Below, one piece after another: positions 34,565 to 36,806 of a stretch of DNA of 64,000 nt. Location: contig NZ_BMGK01000001.1 of the NCBI RefSeq assembly GCF_014640155.1, positions 248,001-312,000 on the forward strand, given 5' to 3'. The stretch is from Planktosalinus lacus. GTDB lineage: Bacteria; Bacteroidota; Bacteroidia; Flavobacteriales; Flavobacteriaceae. How positions within the stretch are numbered: the first letter of the stretch is position 1; every line of letters starts with the position of its first letter. The notes beneath the pieces were generated by a model. The model was not told where the DNA came from. It saw only the letters and a program-made list of their open reading frames with translations, and did no database searches. The position numbers and the translations under genes are program-made.

Positions 34565-34596
34565 TTGTATTGTTGATTTTAAAATCCTTATATTTG
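34565..34596 (+). promoter_or_regulatory. consensus promoter of the HU gene
   Basis: TTG (34565-34567), 21 bases, then TATATTTG (34589-34596), a complete Bacteroidota-type promoter, 45 bases before the HU ATG. The rest of the 241-base gap after glyS (34401-34641) holds no gene that I can see. Confidence 0.65.
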
Positions 34597-34641: not shown

Positions 34642-34932
34642 ATGACAAAAGCAGATATCGTAGCTAAAATTTCAGAAAAGCTAGGAATGGAAAAAGGAGA
34701 TGTGCAGGCAACTGTAGAAAGTTTTATGACAGAAGTAAAAACTTCACTTGAAAGTGGTGACAATGTTTACTTACGTGGTTTTGGAAGTTTCATCATCAAA
34801 ACAAGAGCAGAAAAGACTGGCAGAAACATTTCAAAAAATACAACAATAAAAATTCCAGCACACAATATCCCTGCATTTAAACCGGCAAAGGTTTTTGTAG
34901 AGAGTGTAAAAGAGAATGTTGTTGTAAAATAA
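34642..34932 (+). CDS. HU-family DNA-binding protein
   Basis: 96 residues, the usual length of the histone-like HU/IHF fold. MTKADIVAKISEKLG start, LRGFGSFIIKTRAEKTGRNI beta-arm region (48-67) and PAFKPAKVF end are textbook HU signatures. It bends and compacts nucleoid DNA as a dimer. A strong consensus promoter lies upstream. The 29-codon basic gene follows after 24 bases on the same transcript. Confidence 0.95.
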   Translation: MTKADIVAKISEKLGMEKGDVQATVESFMTEVKTSLESGDNVYLRGFGSFIIKTRAEKTGRNISKNTTIKIPAHNIPAFKPAKVFVESVKENVVVK

Positions 34933-34956: not shown

Positions 34957-35046
34957 ATGCCAAGTGGTAAAAAAAGGAAAAGACACAAGGTAGCAACCCA
35001 TAAGCGCAAAAAGAGAAGTCGCGCTAATCGCCATAAGAAAAAGTAG
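34957..35046 (+). CDS. 29-residue highly basic protein, candidate small ribosomal protein
   Basis: ATG at 34957 to TAG at 35044-35046 encodes 29 residues, beginning MPSGKKRKRHKVATHKRKKR and ending RHKKK, with more than half Lys/Arg/His and no acidic residue. Composition resembles very small ribosomal proteins (Thx, bL34/bL36-like). It lies 24 bases after HU and its stop codon is built into the terminator stem, so it is the last gene of the HU transcript. I recall near-identical small proteins in many Bacteroidota. It could correspond to the Flavobacterium-specific ribosomal protein bL38, but I cannot confirm that identity from memory. Confidence 0.8.
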   Translation: MPSGKKRKRHKVATHKRKKRSRANRHKKK

Positions 35047-35064
35047 TTTCTAACTACTTTTTTT
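35037..35064 (+). terminator. terminator of the HU / small basic gene transcript
   Basis: AAGTAGTT (35041-35048), loop TCT, AACTACTT (35052-35059) and a T-run. An 8-bp perfect stem that includes the stop codon of the 29-residue gene. Confidence 0.85.
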
Positions 35065-35161
35065 AGTTAAAAGAAAAACGTTCTTTGAAAAAGAAATTTT
35101 ACTGACATTCAATGGTTTTTGGGTAAACTATTTGTGTCAAATTAAGGTTTCACCGGGTATT

Positions 35162-35184
35162 TTTCTTACTTTATAAGTAAGAAA
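35162..35184 (+). promoter_or_regulatory. perfect 10-bp hairpin in the RNase E/G leader
   Basis: TTTCTTACTT, loop TAT, AAGTAAGAAA. It sits 81 bases before the GTG start of the RNase gene and has no T-tract, so it is not a terminator; a leader structure is more likely. The remainder of the 200-base region holds no gene. Confidence 0.5.
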
Positions 35185-35264
35185 CCTGTGAGAAATATTG
35201 TTTAATCCATCTGTCCTGAAATGCTTATAGAGCAATAAAACGGGGCGGATAAAAATTACTAAGA

Positions 35265-36806
35265 GTGAACTACGAATTATTTATCAGATCCAGTTCCTCA
35301 GAAGTTGATTTTGCCCTTCTTAAAGATGGAAAACTAATTGAATTGCATAAGGAAGAAGATGACAGTGAATTTGCTGTTGGTGACGTGTTTATCGCCAAAA
35401 CCCGCAAAACTGTTCCTGGTCTCAATGCCGCATTTGTTAATGTAGGATACGAAAAAGACGGATTCTTGCATTATCAGGATTTAGGGCCGCAACTCCCTTC
35501 CTTATTGAAATTCACAAAACTTGTAAGCACAGGTAAACTTAAAGATTACTCTTTAAAGAATTTCCCATTTGAGAAAGATATTGATAAAAATGGCAAGATA
35601 AACGATGCCATCAAATCAAATCAATCCATTTTGGTTCAAATAGTAAAAGAACCTATCTCCACCAAAGGACCCAGAATAAGTTCTGAGTTATCATTGGCAG
35701 GGAGGTATATCGTTTTGGTTCCATTTTCAGATCGTGTTTCTATTTCTCAAAAAATAGAATCAAAAGAAGAAAAAGAACGCTTAAAACGATTGGTACAAAG
35801 CATCCGGCCAAAAGGCTTTGGTGTTATTATTAGAACCGTAGCAGAGGGTAAAAAAGTAGCAGAACTGGACAAAGATTTACAAAACTTGCTTGACCGCTGG
35901 TCTGCAATGTGTAAAAAGCTACAAAACGCGCATCACCCTTCAAAAGTAATGAGTGAAATGAACAGAGGCTTGTCCCTTATCAGGGATTTACTCAATGATT
36001 CTTTCACGGCCATACATATTGATGACGAAGCGCTTTACTTAAAAATTAAAGATTATGTGCACGAAGTTGCACCACAAAAAGAATCAATCGTTAGGTTGTA
36101 TGACTCCAAGGTTCCCATTTTTGAAAAATTTGGTATTGAAAGACAAATAAAAACGTCTTTTGGTCGCACTGTTTCAGGAAGTAAAGGAGCCTATTTGGTA
36201 ATTGAACACACTGAAGCCCTGCATGTTGTTGATGTAAACAGCGGTAACCGCTCTAACAAATCAGACAGCCAGGAAGCCACAGCACTTGAAGTCAATATAA
36301 TCGCAGCAACAGAGTTGGCTCGCCAACTCCGACTGCGCGATATGGGAGGGATTATTGTAGTCGATTTTATCGACATGTCAAATCCAAACCACAGAAAGCA
36401 ACTTTACAATCACTTACGTGATGAAATGAAAGATGACCGGGCAAAACATAAAATTTTGCCTCCCAGTAAATTTGGATTGATCCAAATTACACGACAACGT
36501 GTTAGACCTGAAATGAATATTAAAACCCGAGAGCTTGATCCTAACGGCGAAGCCGGAGAAATTGAGGCTCCTATTTTAATCATAGACAGGATTAACAGTG
36601 ATTTAAAAAGATTAATTAAAAAAGACTATAAAAAGATTACATTAAACACACATCCTTTTATAGCAGCCTTCTTAATAAAAGGCTTTCCATCGATTCGTTC
36701 TAAATGGTTTTTAGAACATAAAAAATGGGTAAAAATTCAACCAAGAGATGCTTACACCTATCTCGAATACCACTTTATTGATAAAGATGGTAAAGAGATA
36801 AAATAA
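35265..36806 (+). CDS. rng: ribonuclease E/G family endoribonuclease
   Basis: 513 residues starting at GTG (35265), which gives the conserved MNYELFIRSSSSEVDFALL start. An S1 domain (about 35-125), the RNase H-like/catalytic region with the Mg-binding aspartates in VVDVNSGN (about 323-330) and IIVVDFIDM (about 364-372), and the RQRVRP stretch are present. The Cys-Pro-x-Cys zinc-link that normally follows RQRxRP in RNase E/G is missing; the protein reads RQRVRPEMNIKTRELDPN. No long C-terminal degradosome scaffold is attached. It processes rRNA and mRNA in the cytoplasm. Confidence 0.94.
   Translation: MNYELFIRSSSSEVDFALLKDGKLIELHKEEDDSEFAVGDVFIAKTRKTVPGLNAAFVNVGYEKDGFLHYQDLGPQLPSLLKFTKLVSTGKLKDYSLKNFPFEKDIDKNGKINDAIKSNQSILVQIVKEPISTKGPRISSELSLAGRYIVLVPFSDRVSISQKIESKEEKERLKRLVQSIRPKGFGVIIRTVAEGKKVAELDKDLQNLLDRWSAMCKKLQNAHHPSKVMSEMNRGLSLIRDLLNDSFTAIHIDDEALYLKIKDYVHEVAPQKESIVRLYDSKVPIFEKFGIERQIKTSFGRTVSGSKGAYLVIEHTEALHVVDVNSGNRSNKSDSQEATALEVNIIAATELARQLRLRDMGGIIVVDFIDMSNPNHRKQLYNHLRDEMKDDRAKHKILPPSKFGLIQITRQRVRPEMNIKTRELDPNGEAGEIEAPILIIDRINSDLKRLIKKDYKKITLNTHPFIAAFLIKGFPSIRSKWFLEHKKWVKIQPRDAYTYLEYHFIDKDGKEIK

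Follow-up and report, generated by a model that had tools for sequence, protein, structure and literature searches.

The gene block at HU, bS22, and rng

The window analyzed here, a stretch of 64,000 nt from Planktosalinus lacus, contains on its forward strand, downstream of a glycyl-tRNA synthetase gene, the gene of an HU-family DNA-binding protein (34642..34932; Pfam Bac_DNA_binding, PF00216, 1.5e-27) and the rng gene of an Rne/Rng-family ribonuclease, which has a GTG start (35265..36806; TIGR00757, 401 bits with a cut-off of 326). Between them, 24 nt 3′ of HU and 218 nt 5′ of rng, lies an open reading frame on the same strand (34957..35046) that runs from the ATG at 34957 to a TAG stop codon at 35044-35046 and encodes 29 amino acids, MPSGKKRKRHKVATHKRKKRSRANRHKKK. 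Sixteen of these residues are Lys or Arg and three are His, acidic residues are absent, and the calculated pI is about 12. An earlier note on this DNA had described a 29-residue, basic ORF between HU and RNase E/G; its position is exact, and the composition bears out the description. Based on matches to PDB sequences, conservation, and the pattern of codon changes, the ORF is annotated here as the gene of the ribosomal protein bS22.

For comparison, 77 loci were aligned with the window, including the window's own locus (L005); L001-L057 are the best-scoring loci and lean to the window's own family, and L058-L077 were chosen for diversity. In all 57 loci of the former group (the window's own included), HU is located directly upstream of the bS22 gene, at a distance of 13–93 nt, and rng downstream. 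In the set of 80 named loci, HU is upstream in 80 and rng downstream in 78, and the contigs of the other two end within about 400 nt of bS22. Of the 20 more distant loci, eight have rng nearby, and ten have their best match to HU about 690–1100 nt upstream. In the two of these that were scanned, L062 and L064, a gene of a TPR-repeat protein (1004-1897 and 1086-1937, respectively) is situated between HU and bS22. The HU-bS22 junction of Flavobacteriales may thus be the result of a deletion or, alternatively, the TPR gene may be an insertion. A Flavobacteriales-type HU-bS22-rng block is also present in a record titled SAR202 cluster bacterium (L109), which is probably a misbinned contig.

Upstream of HU, a putative promoter for HU and bS22 was recognized at 34565..34596 (+), consisting of TTG, 21 nt, and TATATTTG, that is, of the TAnnTTTG type, which we take to be the Bacteroidota-type promoter consensus. 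In raw counts, 44 of the 57 loci carry the motif in the 150 nt upstream of HU, and none of the 57 carries it within HU or the HU-bS22 gap. This distribution suggests that bS22 is expressed from the HU transcript.

Identity, conservation, and loss of bS22

A phmmer search of the PDB sequences with the 29 residues (E up to 10) matched three chains, namely, 7jil_5 from Flavobacterium johnsoniae (E 1.5e-11, one mismatch across 29 aligned residues), 9i5v_10, labeled 'AURKAIP1/COX24 domain-containing protein' (E 1.8e-08), and 8fmw_V, which is bS22 of Borrelia burgdorferi (E 1.3e-05). A family profile of 29 sequences retrieved these three chains again and nothing further, also with E up to 10. The F. 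johnsoniae protein, found as chain 5 of 7jil and in four later PDB entries, is identical in 28 of the 29 aligned residues (Ser21 to Ala) and of similar size (29 residues here, 30 there), the difference being one extra C-terminal Lys. The Borrelia protein is more diverged, although 28 residues align end to end. The matches to the solved ribosome chains 7jil_5 and 8fmw_V support the proposal of the earlier note that the ORF encodes a tiny ribosomal protein. In its description of bS22, PMC10085706 gives a size of about 30 residues, 55–65% of them positive, and the protein encoded here, with 29 residues and 16 Lys/Arg (55%), falls within this range.

The note had, however, pointed to bL38 or a further unrecognized protein, and this part has to be revised. 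The near-identity to 7jil_5, the match to Borrelia bS22, and the separation of the two proteins in PMC10618245 identify the product as bS22, a known 30S protein of solved Flavobacterium ribosomes, and neither as bL38 nor as a new protein. PMC10618245 handles F. johnsoniae bS22 and bL38 as different proteins: bL38 is also a small protein of the same ribosome, but it belongs to the 50S subunit, lies near the sarcin-ricin loop (H95 of 23S rRNA), and contains beta-strands, whereas bS22 is helical and, in Flavobacterium as well as in Borrelia and Mycobacterium, occupies a pocket of the 16S rRNA. Chain 8fmw_V, the match from Borrelia, is likewise named bS22. Although '50S ribosomal protein L38' is among the names given to the chain in the five PDB entries, we consider it very improbable that the ORF encodes this 50S protein, and we reject the bL38 identity based on the PDB match and the description of bL38 in that paper. 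The naming in the PDB is itself inconsistent, as the same 30-residue chain is called both 30S S22 and 50S L38 across the five entries (7jil_5 and four others), so that the mix-up of bL38 and bS22 has a counterpart in the records.

When the ORF was searched with the Pfam and NCBIfam models (E up to 10), no family model recognized it, and the COX24_C/mS38 model (PF08213), searched in the P. lacus genome, did not match it over the cut-off. Thus, bS22 is a known but poorly annotated protein, being nearly universal in the phylum and yet recognized by none of these models. According to the account of Borrelia in PMC10618245, the bS22 gene of that organism, which starts with GUG, lacked annotation in the genome before the structure was solved. 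According to the structure papers (PMC10618245, PMC10085706, PMC6582356), bS22 of Mycobacterium and Cutibacterium, mitochondrial mS38/Cox24, and eukaryotic eL41 are similar to the protein described here in that a highly basic helix occupies the same small-subunit pocket. In these papers, Cutibacterium bS22 is placed at the same site and is 37% identical to the F. johnsoniae protein, bS22 and eL41 are argued to form one group (both PMC10085706), and mS38 and bS22 are discussed (PMC6582356). In sequence, however, these proteins are beyond detection here, the profile finding none of them, and given that Pfam, NCBIfam, and PF08213 yielded no match, membership in a wider bS22/mS38 family depends on the close relatives in Bacteroidota and Borrelia together with the structure papers.

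By homology to the near-identical solved chain, bS22 of P. lacus would be a 29-residue, highly basic part of the 30S subunit, forming a bent helix below the mRNA channel, in a pocket of the 16S rRNA helices h2, h27, h44, and h45, and it would contact the 23S rRNA (H67/H68) when the 30S joins the 50S subunit. Because of this pocket position and the H67/H68 contact, we propose that bS22 stabilizes the top of h44 and an intersubunit bridge.

The gene is highly conserved. With E-values of 0.01 or better, matches were found in all 60 relatives, one per genome (in G057 as a contig-end fragment only), and in 288 of the 296 genomes of the phylum, leaving eight without a match. Among the 29 aligned forms, M1, K6, K8, K11, H15-R20, and R25-K27 are invariant. 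Compared with the window, 1185 codons were changed across the 77 loci, 1046 of them synonymously and 139 non-synonymously; the synonymous share is 88% of the changed codons versus 19% (49 of 252) of all possible single-base changes. The changed bases numbered 238, 73, and 1161 at codon positions 1, 2, and 3, respectively. This pattern indicates that the ORF is under purifying selection at the protein level. The overlap of its 3′ end with a terminator stem (see below) could be taken to mean that the ORF is untranslated and that an RNA element or the terminator accounts for the conservation; however, the clustering of changes at third codon positions, the excess of synonymous codons, and the presence of a near-identical peptide in solved ribosomes make this explanation extraordinarily unlikely. 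The earlier note had considered the ORF a genuine gene and had let its proposal depend on conservation of the 29 codons across genera and on ribosome association. The conservation was found, and the ribosome association is supported by the near-identical chain in the solved F. johnsoniae ribosome. Copies in phages, plasmids, or viruses were searched for, with no hits.

The eight genomes of the phylum that lack a match also yielded none in a profile search (E up to 10). In family f49, none of the seven genomes (G203, G250, G254, G365, G369, G373, and G378) had a credible bS22 match; the one in G365 covers 13 residues (E 0.29) and lies inside a long frame. The remaining misses, G303 and G346, come from fragmented assemblies of 310 and 230 contigs. 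In the distant genus g125, bS22 is present in five of the 12 species, where it follows HU; two further genomes match at chance level (E 0.33 and 0.35). In the seven genomes of this genus that lack bS22 (L201-L207), HU is present and followed by a convergent neighbor, and no strongly basic ORF lies between the two genes; the loss is thus clean and not due to an assembly gap. The lineages without bS22 (members of g125, and f49) look like halophilic Rhodothermia and are presumably halophiles. A link between the loss and halophily was nevertheless not supported: within g125, genomes with bS22 (−0.036 to −0.052, five loci) and those without it (−0.019 to −0.047, six loci) are not set apart by the net charge of their sampled proteins. 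Nor did the counts of SD-like motifs support a requirement of bS22 for SD-less initiation, in which its loss would restore SD motifs. In these small samples, with starts taken from the longest ORFs, such motifs were found at −17 to −5 in 9 of 65 ORFs from g125 genomes with bS22, 5 of 76 from g125 genomes without it, and 3 of 69 from f49 (control windows 4, 2, and 8). The clean loss in one genus offers natural knock-outs in which the function of bS22 could be examined.

A terminator hairpin at the bS22 stop codon

An intrinsic terminator, composed of a hairpin (35037-35063) and a T run, extends over 35037..35065 (+), as judged from the fold and from a count of the stem core. The last codons and the TAG of bS22 fall in its 5′ arm, and thus the ORF ends inside the terminator stem, as had been noted before. 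A standard consensus terminator scan missed the hairpin, apparently because the stem is A/T-rich, and in the P. lacus genome the hairpin pattern occurs in this single place. The stem core AGTAG..CTACT was found near the bS22 stop in 50 of the 77 loci. In 35 of the 77 it begins within the coding sequence or the stop codon, which is TAG in every one of these cases, and in 15 of the 50 it begins after the stop. A looser hairpin criterion yielded 39 overlaps, but included a few weak hairpins, so that the stem-core count was used instead. TAG, not TAA, is the most common bS22 stop codon (45 of 77 loci and 55 of 80 named loci), apparently because it is part of the terminator stem.

This arrangement might have a regulatory consequence: a ribosome finishing bS22 could block the hairpin and thereby allow the polymerase to read into rng, so that bS22 translation would set the level of RNase E/G. 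The stem cores that begin inside the coding sequence or at the TAG would fit such a mechanism, as would the window's bS22-rng gap, in which inspection by eye revealed no promoter motif. However, the 15 loci in which the core begins after the stop show that the overlap is not required, and the Lys-Lys-Lys-stop codons may simply double as a stem; hence, we regard this mechanism as unlikely. Taken together, the ORF almost certainly encodes bS22, a 30S protein with the pocket position and intersubunit role assigned by homology, which would be translated from the HU transcript, with most transcripts predicted to stop at the terminator that overlaps its stop codon.

The leader RNA of rng

Downstream of the terminator, the motif content, covariation, and fold delineate a conserved structured leader of rng with an rRNA-type boxA in Flavobacteriaceae (35080-35264, +), which has no Rfam match at the gathering score. 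It begins with a boxA-like element, GTTCTTTGAAAA (35080..35091, +), the core of which is as in the rRNA boxA of relatives. Two hairpins, P1 and P2, were seen by inspection and in a single-sequence fold; P2 (CGGGT...ACCTG) is located at 35154..35188 (+). Covariation was counted for a further hairpin, P3 (TCTGTCCTG ... CGGGGCGGA; 35210..35249, +), which was obtained with RNAalifold and covaries.

The boxA core GTTC[AT]TTGA is present in the gap between bS22 and rng in 52 of the 65 loci with rng close by, versus 0.22 expected from mononucleotide shuffles. Of the 13 leaders that lack it, one (L030) belongs to the window's own family and the others are outside that family. In the P. lacus genome, a longer boxA pattern matched 17 times versus six times for the reversed control, and three of the 17 matches, the site in the rng leader among them, fall outside long ORFs. 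The P. lacus assembly gave no 16S match. Four relatives whose rRNA operons are complete were examined: all four carry this core in the 16S-23S spacer (for example, CGTTCATTGACATATTG), and their 16S leaders show the core or a close variant of it, the exact core being present before 16S in only one of the four.

For the analysis of structure, a set of 22 leaders was used, that is, the 29 distinct boxA leaders of up to 185 nt (from the 52), minus eight that looked divergent or redundant, plus the window's own (L005). In the RNAalifold analysis of this set, 88.7% of the cells of P3 are paired and the covariation score is 0.74, versus 32–51% and 0.07–0.25 for slid versions of the helix; none of 500 shuffles reached either value. 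Compared with dinucleotide shuffles, the 52 leaders folded with a mean z-score of −3.6, with 44 of them below −2, and the stretch in the window, terminator included, with −5.4. A model built from the 22 leaders matched 67 of the 80 named loci (69 matches, E up to 0.01), although some of the named genomes may be from species close to those behind the model. All matches were on the plus strand between bS22 and rng, and the rest of the 321,018 bases gave no match; the loci that the model missed include those of Chryseobacterium and its kin.

At the gathering score, Rfam had nothing in the window, in the loci of 12 relatives, or in three boxA loci; the best match at a low threshold, FuFi-1, reached 23 bits of the 59.6 needed and was taken as chance. 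Among literature titles on boxA, NusB, and RNase E/G autoregulation, none concerned such a leader in Bacteroidota, and the rng leader RNA is apparently undescribed. In E. coli, the 5′ UTR of rne is also a structured leader that precedes a gene of the RNase E type, and in this respect the two are alike. In boxA leaders of gammaproteobacteria (suhB, rpsJ), an rRNA-type boxA likewise precedes a non-rRNA gene; the boxA search of PMC5725501 was limited to gammaproteobacterial genomes. The leader described here differs in being intercistronic, in occurring in Flavobacteriaceae, and in preceding rng.

One possible function is that of a cis-regulatory RNA, in which the boxA and the hairpins would let NusB-uS10 (Nus factors) and/or RNase E/G tune RNase E/G expression. 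The frequency of the boxA core far above expectation, its recurrence in the 16S-23S spacers and, as variants, in the 16S leaders, the pairing and covariation of P3, the stability of the fold, and the confinement of the model matches to the bS22-rng gap all point in this direction. On the other hand, a boxA in a leader need not bind Nus factors, 13 of the 65 leaders lack the core, the model matches may partly reflect close species, and a covarying hairpin alone would fit autoregulation by the RNase without Nus factors. On balance, we consider the chances of such a cis-regulatory function to be about even. A more specific proposal, which we put forward with slightly less confidence than that, is that the bS22-rng interval of Flavobacteriaceae acts as a cis-regulatory RNA, so far undescribed, by which the production of RNase E/G is coupled to ribosome assembly. 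Transcription of HU and bS22 would meet the terminator that incorporates the bS22 stop codon, RNA from read-through would expose the rRNA-type boxA and load NusB-uS10, and the covarying hairpins 3′ of boxA would then set rng expression.

The bS22 gene itself is ordinary, the gene of a known ribosomal protein; the new part is the neighboring leader RNA, which is a lead worth following. If functional, this leader would tie a main RNA-processing enzyme of these bacteria to ribosome assembly via Nus factors and boxA, outside the gammaproteobacteria that have been surveyed.
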